Origin: a virus
Length of the DNA stretch: 40,483 nt
Strand: one strand, 5' to 3'
IMG/VR virus record: IMGVR_UViG_3300030687_000037
Span: 1 to 40,483 of that record
Part shown: piece after piece, positions 6,829-30,640 of the stretch
How the letters are laid out: every line of letters starts with the position of its first letter
Numbering within the stretch: the stretch's first letter is position 1
Made by a program: the position numbers and the translations under genes
The notes under the pieces: generated by a model
Databases searched by the model: none
Seen by the model: the letters and a program-made list of their open reading frames with translations, nothing else
What the model was told of the DNA's origin: nothing

Positions 6829-7016
6829 GAGATGACTTCCATCTCATTTGCCTGCTTGATGGCGGATGCGATCTCACGCAGCCGGTTGAGGCGTTTCCCC
6901 GGACCGTTCCATGCGTTGGCCAGGATTAGATGAACGTCAGCGGCCAGGTTGTTGGGAACGGCGCCCGATATCAGCGCAGCGGTGATGGAGTCTTCGAGTT
7001 CAATGACTTCATCCAT
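6825..7016 (-). CDS. Small hypothetical protein
   Basis: A 63-residue helical protein starting MDEVIELEDS. The ATG at 7014-7016 gives an 8-base overlap with the ProQ gene. An ATG fifteen codons upstream (7061) would overlap by 52 bases and is less likely. Coupled to the ProQ-like gene and to the following micro-peptide. Function unknown. Confidence 0.65.
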   Translation of the reverse strand: MDEVIELEDSITAALISGAVPNNLAADVHLILANAWNGPGKRLNRLREIASAIKQANEMEVIS

Positions 7017-7407
7017 AGGATGCATCCAATCGAGCCAGACGAATGGCAGCGAACTTCGCATCGGATGCAGTCACCAGCCCGGCCGGGTCTCCGTGCAGAT
7101 CGACGCGAACGTTCCCTTCGATCATGGCGCGCAGATAGGTCCGCCCGCCGACGTAGTTGCCGATCGCGGCTCGGGTCCGCTGACGATTGAGATGCGGATG
7201 AGCCTTGATCACTTCCTCGTAGATCCCAACCATCAGAGGAAACTTGGCTTGACCGAAGCCGCGGAACGCCATCGGGAAAAGCCCGTTCAGCTTCATCCGC
7301 ATGTCCATGTTGGCGCGATGCAGAACCTTGCGACGCGCAACAGCGGAGTTGGGAGTAGGTGAGGGGACGAAGTCGTGCGGGAGGTTCGGATTGAATTGCA
7401 TGTTCAT
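7009..7407 (-). CDS. ProQ/FinO-family RNA chaperone
   Basis: A 132-residue protein. Residues 54-122 match the ProQ/FinO RNA-binding domain: KFPLMVGIYEEV, then RTRAAIGNYVGGRTYLRAM, then RVDLHGDPAGLVT. Residues 20-50 are a basic flexible region. Proteins of this family bind hairpins with 3' single-stranded tails and pair or protect small RNAs. The gene sits directly downstream of the hairpin array at 7427-7723, with an ATGA overlap to the gene carrying that array, so those hairpins are natural candidate ligands (inference). A phage copy is uncommon. Confidence 0.88.
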   Translation of the reverse strand: MNMQFNPNLPHDFVPSPTPNSAVARRKVLHRANMDMRMKLNGLFPMAFRGFGQAKFPLMVGIYEEVIKAHPHLNRQRTRAAIGNYVGGRTYLRAMIEGNVRVDLHGDPAGLVTASDAKFAAIRLARLDASYG

Positions 7408-8600
7408 GAGACAGTCTCCAATGGGTGGGGAAGCAACTGGCCAACGGCCTTGTGAGCATGGATGCTTTGGCCTCCCCTGGGCTTGCGCCCGTTCGTGTTT
7501 TTGGAGGTGGCATCCGTCATTTGGCCTTTCGGCAGTCGAGACGTGGCCACCTCCGCGACTTTCGCCGCATTCGTGTTTTTGGAGGTGGCAGAACCAGTCC
7601 GGCCTTTCGGCACAATGTGAATGGCCACCTCCGCGACTTTCGCCGCATCTGAATTTTTGGTGTCGGCACGTCTAATACGGCCTTTCGGCAAGCCGCGAAG
7701 GGCCGACACCGCGCCCGTAGGCGTATCGATGTAACGATGGGAGACGGGCAGCGGATACATAGCCAGTTCAGGCATGCCGGGGACGGCCCGTCTCCACGCT
7801 TGCCAAAGATGCTTCAGCAAACGTTTTTCCATGTATCTCTGCGAACGAAGATGAATCTGTCCGTCCGAGATAAATAGCTCTCGAGTCTTCGCGGGGATCT
7901 TCGCGGCCGGCGCCACGGTCAGACCGTTGGCAACGGCGCGTTCGCGCTCGTAGTCTTTCCGAGCCAGATAGGCCGTGCGATACGGACCCGTCTGGTTTCC
8001 CTTCATCAGCGTATCGCCGATATTCCACATCCGAGATCGACGGATCGGGCTGTAGCCGTGTTCGATCCAGAGATCCTTGCCTGACGTCTTCTTCAAGCCG
8101 CCCTGGCGCACGCCGTCCATCACAGCGAGGCCCATACGCTTCCACAACTTGGAATGCGACGAGTAGTGGTTGAGATCGCCAGCTTCACCGACGATGACAG
8201 CCAGGGACACGGCGCCGAACCCACGGATGGATTCACCAAAGGAAGACCAGACCGGAAGCAGTTTGGCCAAACGCTCCATTTCCTTATGCGCAATCTTCTC
8301 GAAATCATCCGTCAGTTTGCGCGCGTTGATGGCGACCAGGATGATAGGACCGTAGTTCTGGAATTCTTCGGTGTCGGACAGATCGTGCGGCTTGCCCTTG
8401 GCGAGTTTCTCACCGCAATCAATCAACTGATCAGCCTGGGTCGCTATCCGCTTACGATCCTCGTCCGGAAGATCCTTGCGCCAGCCGAGCCACGAACGGA
8501 GACTTGACCCGAGCGAGAGATCCGCACGCTTGCGGTTTTCCATGGCGAAGCAACGCTTGCGATGCCAGTCACGAATGCTGTCGATGATCTCAGAAGACAT
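7404..8600 (-). CDS. IS110/IS116-type transposase C-terminal-domain protein with hairpin-array tail
   Basis: A 398-residue protein. Residues about 119-170 match the helix-hairpin-helix Transposase_20 domain of IS110-type recombinases (IRGFGAVSLAVIVGEAGD, then SKLWKRMGLA). A helical arm follows, through about 270. The N-terminal DEDD nuclease domain of IS110 enzymes is not visible, so this is probably not an active transposase on its own. Residues about 297-391 are encoded by four copies of the hairpin element (repeating PKGR/SKNTN/AAKVAEVA units). The ATG at 8598-8600 overlaps the upstream stop by 11 bases; an ATG at 8627 is less likely. Confidence 0.75.
   Translation of the reverse strand: MSSEIIDSIRDWHRKRCFAMENRKRADLSLGSSLRSWLGWRKDLPDEDRKRIATQADQLIDCGEKLAKGKPHDLSDTEEFQNYGPIILVAINARKLTDDFEKIAHKEMERLAKLLPVWSSFGESIRGFGAVSLAVIVGEAGDLNHYSSHSKLWKRMGLAVMDGVRQGGLKKTSGKDLWIEHGYSPIRRSRMWNIGDTLMKGNQTGPYRTAYLARKDYERERAVANGLTVAPAAKIPAKTRELFISDGQIHLRSQRYMEKRLLKHLWQAWRRAVPGMPELAMYPLPVSHRYIDTPTGAVSALRGLPKGRIRRADTKNSDAAKVAEVAIHIVPKGRTGSATSKNTNAAKVAEVATSRLPKGQMTDATSKNTNGRKPRGGQSIHAHKAVGQLLPHPLETVS
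7427..7723 (-). repeat. Modular hairpin array, four units
   Basis: Units at 7427-7477, 7503-7554, 7581-7632 and 7659-7710; the last three are exactly 52 nt at a 78-nt period. Each reads (minus strand) stem, GGCC, ten variable bases, TGCC, GAAA, GGCC, ten variable bases, TGCC, stem. The outer stems differ but stay paired (GGAGGT/ACCTCC versus GGTGTC/GACACC). Each unit has a small tetraloop hairpin on its 5' side on the minus strand: GCAA, GAAA, GAAA and TACG loops at 7479-7490, 7555-7568, 7633-7646 and 7711-7723. The unit at 7427 is the most degenerate (TGCT, CACAA loop). Confidence 0.85.
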
Positions 8601-9156
8601 TGGTCTTCTCCATGGCGCGACGAACAATATTCTGCATGTCGGCCGGTTTGAGAGCGTGACGAAGTAGCGTGTTGCCTGGCAGGTTGGCGTATTTCAGCTT
8701 TGCCCTACGTGCTGCCCCGAGCAGCACGAGACCTTCGTGAGTCATATTCTTGCCGGCACGAAGGGCATTAGTGATCGTCCAGTCGCCAATAGACAGACCG
8801 TCGATTTTCATGGTGTCCATGACGGTGAGAGCGATCTTCTTCGCATTATCGGCGCCGATTGATCGTTGCTGTGCAGTCGGTTCGCGAGCGATGAAGGTGA
8901 CAAGACGGTGTGAAGGTGAGGAGGCACCTATCGATTGGCCTTGCGGCACCTTAAACTTGGCCTCCTCACCTTCATTTGTGTGTCGGGGTTGGGCAGATTC
9001 AACCTGGCCGCAGTCGGCATCGATGTCTTGGCCCTTCCCCGACATTTCTACGGCGCGATCAAACGCGCCAACCCATTGAGCGCGCTGACCGCCCGCTAAA
9101 ATGAAATTCGCTGCAACTGTGAGAAGTTGTTCGTTAGGTGAGATGATCCCGTGCAT
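8590..9156 (-). CDS. Hypothetical protein carrying two hairpin elements
   Basis: A 188-residue protein with no recognised domain. Residues about 38-82 are encoded by two hairpin units (8982-9043 and 8912-8973), in different reading frames relative to each other, so that segment is probably an inserted linker. The C-terminal 80 residues are a compact helical region (THEGLVLLGAARRAKLKYA). It overlaps the transposase-like gene downstream by 11 bases and the upstream 46-residue gene as TGATG. Function unknown. Confidence 0.7.
   Translation of the reverse strand: MHGIISPNEQLLTVAANFILAGGQRAQWVGAFDRAVEMSGKGQDIDADCGQVESAQPRHTNEGEEAKFKVPQGQSIGASSPSHRLVTFIAREPTAQQRSIGADNAKKIALTVMDTMKIDGLSIGDWTITNALRAGKNMTHEGLVLLGAARRAKLKYANLPGNTLLRHALKPADMQNIVRRAMEKTNVF
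8912..9043 (-). repeat. Modular hairpin pair, two units
   Basis: Unit 8912-8973 has a perfect 14-bp outer stem (arms 8912-8925 and 8960-8973). Unit 8982-9043 has 7 bp, a TT/TT mismatch, then 4 bp. Both keep the GGCC, ten bases, TGCC, loop, GGCC, ten bases, TGCC layout of the array at 7427-7710. The inner loops are GCAA and a 4-bp stem with ACTG. The two units are separated by only 8 bases. Confidence 0.85.
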
Positions 9157-17332: not shown

Positions 17333-17535
17333 GCAAGAAAGACACACGCACACCAGAACAGCAGGACTTTGATGAACGAGTCAGGCGCGCAGCCGCGTAC
17401 GAAGAGCGGCTCGATGAGACTTTGACTCGTCGAGAGGTGATAGATGCACTGGAGTATGTGGCGGAAGACTACTCTGGACAGCATGGTTCTAACACACGGG
17501 ATCTCCTCGCAAGAATCACGAAGGCTTTGTCATGA
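17329..17535 (+). CDS. Small charged hypothetical protein
   Basis: A 68-residue highly charged helical protein (MSKKDTRTPEQQDFDERV). ATGA overlaps at both ends. Function unknown. Confidence 0.72.
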   Translation: MSKKDTRTPEQQDFDERVRRAAAYEERLDETLTRREVIDALEYVAEDYSGQHGSNTRDLLARITKALS

Positions 17536-18608
17536 GCGTCGTCAAGGATGCCATGAACGCCTACGCCGCTACTCTCGATCGCGAGTGGGCCCATGATCGC
17601 ACCCAGACCGTCGGGGCGTCCGAGGTCGGCGGCTGTATACGGAAGACCTATTACACCAAGAACGAGAACGACCCTCGTTTCGGTGTCGTACGTGATTCCG
17701 ACTACGTGGACGGTTGGGGCGCCAAACTGCGCGGCACCCTGATGGAGAATCACTTCTGGGCACCAGCGATGAAGGCCAAGTACGGCGACAAGCTGCTGCT
17801 GTCTGGCCCAGATCAGCAGTCGTTTGTGACCGGTTTCCTGAGTGCAACACCGGACGGCATGCTGATTGATTTGCCGCGGGACTTCCTCAAGGACAATGGA
17901 GTTGCCGACATCGAGGGCGACTGCATCATGGCAGAATCCAAGACGATCGACCCCAGGGCAAATTTAATTGAAGCAAAGCCAATAAACATCTTTCAGACTC
18001 ACGTTCAGATGGGCATAGTCCGCGAGCTGACTCCTTACAAACCAGGTTACTCGCTGCTGTCCTACACGGACGCAAGCTTCTGGGATCAGATTACCGAATT
18101 CCCCATCAAGTTCGATCCTGCGATTTACGCGGTTGCGAAAATTCGCGCCACCCAGGTCATGACGGCAACAAGTGCCAAGGATCTGGAGCCCGAGGGCTAT
18201 CTCTCTGGCGGCAAGGATTGTGAGTATTGCCCCTTCACCGGGGCGTGCGGCGTGGTTCGGATTTCTGTCCCGACGCACCCTGAGAAGGACGTCGATCCCC
18301 AGTTAGCTGCAGAGTTTGCCGATATGGCGCGAGAGATCGCGGCGTTAGAGGCGACCGTAGGTAAGGACGAAACCAAACTCCGCACGCTCAAGCAGGCCCT
18401 CAAGGATCGATTGAGGGAAAAGAACATCCGGAAAGTTCCTGGCGTGGTGTCGTGGTCGAGCGTCAAGGGCAAAAAAACATACAACAACAAAGCAATCCAA
18501 GCCGCGGCCAAGGCGGCTGGAATCGATATCGAACAATTTGTCGAAGTGGGAGATCAGACTGATCGCTTCACCGTATCCACAGCAAAAGGAGGTGCGAATG
18601 CCGATTGA
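17532..18608 (+). CDS. PD-(D/E)XK nuclease, Cas4/RecB-like
   Basis: A 358-residue protein. GASEVGGCIRKTYY near 28 and SATPDGMLID, then AESKTIDPR, carry the D and E-x-K catalytic residues of PD-(D/E)XK exonucleases. A CEYCPFTGAC cluster near 230 resembles the C-terminal Fe-S cysteines of Cas4-type nucleases, with the first cysteine possibly at GGC near 35. Residues 260-310 form a coiled-coil extension. It sits with a MazG-like and a putative ssDNA-binding gene, before the primase-helicase. A role in recombination or DNA-end processing is likely. Confidence 0.82.
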   Translation: MSVVKDAMNAYAATLDREWAHDRTQTVGASEVGGCIRKTYYTKNENDPRFGVVRDSDYVDGWGAKLRGTLMENHFWAPAMKAKYGDKLLLSGPDQQSFVTGFLSATPDGMLIDLPRDFLKDNGVADIEGDCIMAESKTIDPRANLIEAKPINIFQTHVQMGIVRELTPYKPGYSLLSYTDASFWDQITEFPIKFDPAIYAVAKIRATQVMTATSAKDLEPEGYLSGGKDCEYCPFTGACGVVRISVPTHPEKDVDPQLAAEFADMAREIAALEATVGKDETKLRTLKQALKDRLREKNIRKVPGVVSWSSVKGKKTYNNKAIQAAAKAAGIDIEQFVEVGDQTDRFTVSTAKGGANAD

Positions 18609-27468: not shown

Positions 27469-28191
27469 TTAGAGAGCAGCCACGATCGCGGCCGCTTTTT
27501 TCTTCGCTGCACCATGGGCAGGAAAACCGACGATGGTTTTTCGGGTTGCTATCTGACAAAGACCGCACGACTTGCACGTAACATCGTCACGGTAGGTTGC
27601 GGGGCAAACGACAACACGGTGGCCGGACGGCGTGTGAAGCTTTGAGTTTCCGCTAATCGAGTCCGAAAGCACCACGACAACAGGACCGATGTTGAGCGCG
27701 GCCAATTCGTCGGCCTCCGACATGTTGTCGGCAGATAGATTGATCGTGAAACCGTTTGCATTGGCCTTAGCGACTGCAGCGGCGTTCGCGGCATTGTCCA
27801 TCGGCTTATGCGTGTAGGTAAAGCCGCGCTTGCCTTTGTTGGCCTTGACCAGCTCGCCTAATGCCGTTGCATCGATGGTGTTATCATCGCCCGGCAAATC
27901 GCCGGCTTGATTGTGACGCCATATAGCGTTGGCATCTAGCTTGTGAACCATCTTGAGAAATGCTTGCCAGCCAAACGTCAAAACGTTTCCGTTGCCGTTT
28001 TTGAAAGTGCTATCGGGACCGGCCGCAGATAGGCCTTTCCACATGCCGCCAAGCGGACCGTATGCGGCATAACAACCGGCATCATAGAACGGGCAAGCTG
28101 TCGGGCAGGTTTTGCGGTCCGATGTTGAAACCGGCATCGGTCCGGTTTTTTTGTTTGATGACTGCAGCGTGAACGTCAAGTGCGGTTTCAT
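27469..28191 (-). CDS. Cys-rich phage protein (DUF7227-like)
   Basis: A 240-residue protein. It opens with KTGPMPVSTSDRKTCPTAC and PFYDAGCYA, and ends with TCKSCGLCQIA. These cysteine clusters suggest a bound Fe-S or zinc site. The middle is an alpha/beta domain (NIGPVVVVLSDS). It resembles the uncharacterised DUF7227-type phage and plasmid proteins. Largest gene of the leftward accessory operon. The start follows the upstream stop by one base. Confidence 0.72.
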   Translation of the reverse strand: MKPHLTFTLQSSNKKTGPMPVSTSDRKTCPTACPFYDAGCYAAYGPLGGMWKGLSAAGPDSTFKNGNGNVLTFGWQAFLKMVHKLDANAIWRHNQAGDLPGDDNTIDATALGELVKANKGKRGFTYTHKPMDNAANAAAVAKANANGFTINLSADNMSEADELAALNIGPVVVVLSDSISGNSKLHTPSGHRVVVCPATYRDDVTCKSCGLCQIATRKTIVGFPAHGAAKKKAAAIVAAL

Positions 28192-30562: not shown

Positions 30563-30640
30563 TGCGGGGTGGAGCAGCCCGGTAGCTCGTCTGGCTCATA
30601 ACCAGAAGGTCGTCGGTTCAAATCCGACCCGCCGCAACCA
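30563..30640 (+). tRNA. tRNA-Met (CAT), initiator-like
   Basis: A full cloverleaf with encoded CCA. The D arm (GGAGCAGCCCGGTAGCTC), the anticodon loop CTCATAA closed by TCTGG/CCAGA, the variable AGGTC and the T arm GTCGG-TTCAAAT-CCGAC match alphaproteobacterial initiator tRNA-Met. Two oddities: the 3' acceptor strand is CCGCCGCA, one base longer than the usual CCCCGCA, so one G is bulged. Position 1 is T, pairing with A72, where initiators have an unpaired C1. It may be a functional elongator-like or modified initiator, or a decaying copy. Confidence 0.85.

Follow-up and report, generated by a model that had tools for sequence, protein, structure and literature searches.

The window analysed here is a 40,483-nt stretch of viral DNA (IMG/VR record IMGVR_UViG_3300030687_000037, positions 1 to 40,483) from a phage that probably belongs to hosts in the Alphaproteobacteria. 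Its minus strand bears a compact operon of a 188-amino-acid (aa) open reading frame (ORF), tasA and proQ, and within the first two lie seven hairpins, each with two variable spacers. We conclude that this locus is almost certainly a TIGR-TasA system with a stem-loop array, a type of TIGR-Tas described by Faure et al. 2025 (PMC12045711). The upstream ORF (8590..9156, minus strand; 188 aa) matches no known family and holds two guide units in frame; L133 and L130 contain homologues of it, and its overlap with the tas start is 11 nt long. The tasA gene (7404..8600, minus strand) encodes 398 aa from the ATG at 8600, in a reading frame with a TTG start from 8627, and the tas ORF spans five units up to its stop at 7404. 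This stop overlaps the start ATG of proQ (ATGA), a gene for a ProQ/FinO-family RNA chaperone (7009..7407, minus strand; PF04352, E 8.4e-17). A promoter and terminator scan of the operon gave nothing beyond chance.

A preliminary description of this DNA had reported six minus-strand hairpins with two variable 10-nt segments each. Pattern counts and folds bear out all six, and a seventh, at 7740-7795, had been overlooked. On the plus strand, the pattern GGCA-N10-GGCC-N4-6-GGCA-N10-GGCC occurs five times in the window, always within 7509-9033, and in none of 100 shuffles; the half-site GGCA-N10-GGCC was observed 14 times against 1.7 expected. The unit at 7427 carries AGCA/TGCT, as had been stated, and the 5′ N10 strings listed earlier are correct. 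The additional unit reads GGAGACGGGC-C-GTCCCCGGCA-TGCC-TGAACT-GGCT-ATGTATCCGC-T-GCCCGTCTCC. Folded as minus-strand RNA, the units are more stable than shuffled sequences (z-scores −2.3 to −6.0). The fixed length of the N10 segments stands, although their true segmentation is CC-A, a 9-nt spacer and TG: across 12 loci of the window's class, the first N10 base is A for spacer A in 42/53 units and for spacer B in 31/53, and the natural segmentation is therefore CCA-N9-TG. Read on the minus strand, each unit consists of outer stem, CC(A), 9 nt, TG, inner stem and loop, CC(A), 9 nt, TG and outer stem.

All seven guide units are on the minus strand. Unit 1 (8982..9043) has spacer A AGACATCGA and spacer B GGTTGAATC (z −4.1), and unit 2 (8911..8974), with a perfect outer stem of 15 bp, has AGTTTAAGG and ATCGATAGG (z −6.0). 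Unit 3 is the newly recognised one (7740..7795; TCCCCGGCA and TGTATCCGC; z −4.8), and its second box C is degenerate (GCT). It is followed by unit 4 (7659..7710; TTCGCGGCT and TATTAGACG; z −3.9), unit 5 (7581..7632; TTCACATTG and GACTGGTTC; z −3.1), unit 6 (7503..7554; CGTCTCGAC and AATGACGGA; z −5.1) and unit 7 (7427..7477; AAGCATCCA and TTGGCCAGT; z −2.3), in which CT, not CC, follows box D. An Rfam scan of the window found no family at the hairpins.

The protein encoded beside these hairpins has two parts, a Nop/coiled-coil Tas domain (residues 1-279) and an array-encoded tail (residues 280-398). AlphaFold2 modelled residues 1-279 as an all-helical core with per-residue confidence (pLDDT) mostly >90, falling to ∼40 from residue 280, and the tail is accordingly predicted to be disordered. 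A profile of 11 homologues searched against the PDB matched TasR (9mty, E 1.5e-23) and TasH (21kl, E 2.6e-9) and nothing else. In agreement, the ten best Foldseek matches to the model were TasR or TasH, with IS621 and ISCro4 after them. The protein also matched PHROG 4285, ‘transposase’ (E 1.7e-19), and gave a sub-threshold match to Pfam PF02371, a weak likeness to the IS110 C-terminal domain. Pfam detected no RuvC or HNH nuclease in it, and the model opens with a coiled coil and has only disorder past the Nop core; a DEDD/RuvC transposase domain was likewise absent from the Pfam scan and the model. As it lacks a nuclease domain, the window Tas is therefore TasA.

Members of the family turned up in 64 viral loci, in two phage records and in 13 genome loci, among them Rhodoplanes elegans, Ochrobactrum/Brucella, Shinella, Rhizobium and a Pseudoxanthomonas metagenome-assembled genome. 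Tas homologues adjoin hairpin arrays in most of the multi-unit viral contigs examined, and the grammar CCA-N9-[U/C]G lies beside tas in at least 50 phage loci, mostly alphaproteobacterial. The window has seven single-loop units; other tas loci have 1-19 where the scan detected any. Rhizobium phage RHph_X2_25 has an array, and Microcystis phage Mvi-JY20 (L127) has a Tas homologue with no array recognised by the grammar used; its array may be of the dual-repeat or a divergent type. Some Brucella prophages, here called type II, have one or two units with a 13-14-bp stem, some of them mixed-box (UG first, CG second), at 8928 and 9576 in L199 and at 9154 in L157; the first unit is identical in L197 and L199. 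On scaffold0074 of Rhodoplanes elegans DSM 11907, two loci ∼63 kb apart (L191, 103953-124786, and L192, 40847-61680) have identical array units, reflecting either a duplicated prophage or an assembly repeat.

These relatives allowed the architecture of the units to be examined. With segment length left free, 53/59 hairpins in related loci were (10,10), and the reversed control gave three matches, none of them (10,10). In terms of spacers, the tas strand had 222 (9,9) units; the antisense strand gave 21 matches of all lengths, and reversed sequence 30, with (9,9) not among the commonest lengths there. Stems were assessed among matches to the box grammar CCA-N9-YG-N4-12-CCA-N9-YG, in which the stem is not selected for. 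Of the 272 such matches lying on the sense strand no more than 2.5 kb from tas, 189 had at least 6/8 outer pairs, compared with 0/36 far from tas and 0/53 antisense. At stem positions 3-8 all four Watson–Crick pairs occur among the collected loci. Box D is UG or CG, and 241/348 unique spacer pairs have matching boxes (UG/UG or CG/CG) and 54 mixed ones, in a scan that gave both UG and CG favourable scores. The spacer positions are near-even in base composition and the boxes fixed. The earlier proposal of a kept RNA structure with two fixed-length guide segments per hairpin was right, and the confinement of the hairpins to tas loci and to the tas sense strand makes its alternative of a selfish palindrome unlikely.

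The spacers themselves turn over between related phages. Units were paired one-to-one where their flanks shared 75% identity or more across 61 nt, giving 57 matched pairs, which share phages and so are not independent: in 13 both spacers were the same, in 42 both were different and 2 were borderline. In the 42 both-different pairs, flank identity averages 87% (up to 100%) and spacer identity 26%, the level expected at random. Among four phages (the L179-L182 group), some units have 97-100% identical flanks and different spacers, with sharp edges at the boxes, and L158/L167 and L193/L196 likewise combine kept flanks with differing spacers, so that the pattern recurs in several groups. Drift cannot account for this turnover, and the spacers have been replaced; the scaffold is kept while the spacers swap quickly. 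Recombination swapping larger array blocks is possible, and the near-identical linkers in L179-L182 argue for replacement at the spacer scale. The first comparison hinted at a strict rule by which both spacers are either kept or replaced; owing to the two borderline exceptions in 57, we do not claim it.

We then searched for natural targets, taking the target form as spacer A followed by the reverse complement of spacer B and permitting gaps of 0-2 between them. This form is our own derivation, and was chosen because TasR leaves 8-nt 3′ overhangs. The unit GGTGAAAGC/GTCATAATT is common to four Brucella/Ochrobactrum-type prophage records (L150, L161, L193 and L196, of which L161 and L196 are probably one prophage). 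Its predicted 18-bp target, GGTGAAAGCAATTATGAC, has one exact ungapped match in 299 family genomes (∼1.4 Gb). The site, in Brucella pseudintermedia, covers codons 9-15 of the gene for a tyrosine-recombinase integrase, and this integrase sits in a 37-kb prophage that is bounded by 46-bp att repeats and has its own tas. Among viral contigs, a second integrase, with 89% identity to the first across 1283 nt, also contains the site, and one further exact match (L205) is unrelated and evidently due to chance. Brucella daejeonensis carries both kinds of prophage, the second without the target site. We regard this as one good candidate case rather than a demonstrated rule. A 17/18 match near a Rhizobium integrase lies in an accA-like gene and was taken as chance, and predicted targets showed no clear enrichment for start codons or Shine–Dalgarno sequences.

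Together, these results suggest how the locus may work. A minus-strand operon transcript (188-aa ORF, tasA and proQ) would contain the seven hairpins, and each would be excised as one tigRNA made up of a palindromic outer stem, box C (CCA), 9-nt spacer A, box D (UG), a capped inner stem, CCA, 9-nt spacer B, UG and the outer stem. A TasA dimer would grip the two box C/D pairs; within an 18-bp DNA site, spacer A would pair with one strand and spacer B with the other strand of the neighbouring half. Because TasA has no nuclease, it would most likely open and bend the DNA, blocking transcription of the bound gene. Our best guess is that the phage would use this as a weapon among rival phages and other mobile elements, since spacers swap fast on a kept scaffold and the guide of a relative matches the integrase start of another phage. 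From the turnover and this one target, we consider a role in repressing rivals about evenly balanced. With slightly less confidence, we propose tentatively that temperate phages exchange paired 9-nt spacers by an undescribed, precisely bounded process that keeps stems, boxes, loops and frame, and that a nuclease-free Tas shuts off key genes, such as the integrase, of Tas-bearing rivals.

Several observations weigh against this interpretation. The boxes of window units 3 and 7 are degenerate, and both units may be decaying. The target rule comes from TasR/TasH and their dual-repeat arrays rather than from TasA and its stem-loops. About ten spacer pairs were searched for predicted targets, and only one gave a convincing match: GGACTACAC/CGAGCTGGG, CCTGACTGT/AGTGTAGAG, CCCCAATTT/TCAATATGG, GCTTCTTGT/GTGGTGGGA, GAGATCCTT/CTAAGCTGA and CGATGTACT/GATGCTGCA gave none, TGCGCTCGG/TTGGATTTA gave only five gapped viral matches, none convincing, and TTGGTCATG/GCAGTCGGT nothing more convincing than two one-mismatch matches in unrelated, apparently chromosomal sequence. 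Two guide pairs from the window had no match in viral contigs, and cross-targeting among ∼2-2.8 Mb of tas loci and prophages showed no excess over controls.

The guides might instead be directed at genes of the host or at the genome of the phage that carries them, for regulation or to aid its own integrase, a use that we consider doubtful. In its favour, TasA has no nuclease, the sole convincing target is an integrase gene, and the TIGR authors propose regulation or integrase aid (PMC12045711). However, when the phages' own contigs were searched, the tandem rule gave no match of at least 17/18 and no more matches than the control rules did, and the integrase target lies in a different phage; in B. 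daejeonensis, the best match to the target in the guide-bearing phage is 14/18. Complete guide change between close relatives also suits moving targets better than fixed own genes. That the integrase match is a coincidence is distinctly improbable. The low yield of the search and the evidently chance match in L205 would fit it, but the match is ungapped, the chance expectation in the 299 genomes is ∼0.04 ungapped (0.12 if gaps of 0-2 are allowed), a second such integrase retains the site, and the match falls within the genus that hosts the array, in a temperate phage and near the start codon of an integrase gene.

The position of the units within genes raised a further alternative, that the array is a coding repeat forming the repetitive tail of the 407-aa and 188-aa proteins, with the palindromes as a by-product. 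In the 12 loci of the window's class, nearly all units lie within ORFs, mostly of >100 codons, and 19/22 distances between neighbouring units are divisible by three; distances inside one array are not independent, but the multiple of three that is kept varies from locus to locus. Over the entire collection, in which the short-loop class predominates, 24/65 neighbour distances are multiples of three, and we rejected frame preservation as a general rule, as it holds in the window's class only. Against a coding repeat, in addition to this collection-wide spacing, the stems covary through all four base pairs, the spacers are near-random at every position between fixed boxes, the units are spread over two different ORFs and the tail that they encode is predicted to be unstructured, leaving this explanation very improbable indeed. 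Going by the reading frames, the window's clade is one that embeds TIGR guides in translated sequence. Excision of a guide would cut the tas messenger, which could be a form of self-limitation.

The remaining alternative, that the hairpins are target loops of IS110-type bridge RNAs and remnants of an insertion element, draws on the weak likeness to the IS110 C-terminal domain and on the Foldseek rank of IS621 and ISCro4, but deserves next to no credence, as the protein opens with a coiled coil rather than a DEDD/RuvC domain and is better matched by TasR/TasH in sequence and fold, each locus has many single-loop units instead of one two-loop RNA, and the window operon is intact. The resemblance to an IS110 bridge-RNA loop pointed out in the preliminary description was nonetheless well founded, for the partner protein has a Nop domain and is related to IS110 transposases. 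A simple bridge RNA is not what lies here: no DEDD/RuvC domain, donor loop or element ends were seen in the window, and the protein is nearer to TasR/TasH than to IS621. The lack of a shared core dinucleotide is as expected, because TIGR spacers A and B pair with adjacent target halves on opposite strands, with no overlap (PMC12045711). IS110/IS621 and its bridge RNA share with the window a related RNA-binding domain and an internal loop in which two guides pair with both target strands, and differ in having a DEDD domain, a donor loop and a transposon, and in lacking the window's many guides.

Every feature of the TIGR-TasA stem-loop type of PMC12045711 that can be read from sequence is present in the window. 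The two share the solo Nop-domain protein, the array of hairpins whose palindromic ends vary, a pair of spacers in each unit, set between CCA and UG (published spacers are 8-12 nt), the phage setting and an array that adjoins tas on the same strand. Unlike the published type, units of the window's clade are embedded in frame in the tas ORF and in a second ORF upstream, the window loop has its own capped stem and a ProQ/FinO gene lies downstream. The dual-repeat arrays of TIGR-TasR/TasH also have a homologous Nop domain, 9-nt spacers and CCA and UG boxes, whereas the window has no RuvC or HNH nuclease and hairpin stems replace the edge repeats. By published comparison, box C/D-anchored spacers and the Nop domain are shared with box C/D small nucleolar ribonucleoproteins (Nop5); in contrast to these, no fibrillarin, L7Ae or kink-turn partner was seen in the window, and the target is presumed to be DNA. 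CRISPR arrays similarly have variable guides between constant elements and fast guide change. Unlike them, the window has no cas genes, a split 9+9 guide and covarying hairpin units rather than direct repeats, and spacers are replaced in place, not added at a leader end. Indeed, no Cas families were found among the array-adjacent ORFs scanned, and a distant ORF (17532-18608) with a weak ‘CRISPR/Cas system associated’ PHROG match (E 0.0027) has a far stronger RecE-like match.

The kind of locus is thus already known, and the guide turnover and the candidate target are new leads. In-frame arrays in ORFs, spacer turnover and a candidate integrase target go beyond the published description as given in the main text of PMC12045711, which reports neither spacer replacement between relatives nor natural targets and leaves open the natural targets, the origin of spacers and the role of TasA. 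The relatives of the window phage supply cultured hosts (Brucella formerly placed in Ochrobactrum, Rhodoplanes, Shinella and Rhizobium), a concrete candidate target in the integrase start of a rival prophage and a clean natural record of spacer replacement; therefore, these open TIGR-Tas questions become directly testable.

Other features of the window were also recorded. A ProQ/FinO homologue occurs at just one other tas locus (L184), ∼4-5 kb off and on the opposite strand, and is therefore no fixed partner, although the ProQ/FinO protein could aid guide handling. Two further records are copies of the window phage: L115 (IMGVR_UViG_3300030524_000067) is identical across its 11.4 kb, and L129 (IMGVR_UViG_3300030737_000014) has an identical tas and, as it is part of a 67-kb contig, the 40-kb window may not be complete. 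The protein encoded at 27469-28191 (minus strand) of the window matches DUF7227 very strongly (E 2.6e-85) and GP88 weakly. The sole Rfam match in the window is a tRNA gene (RF00005) at 30564-30636 on the plus strand.
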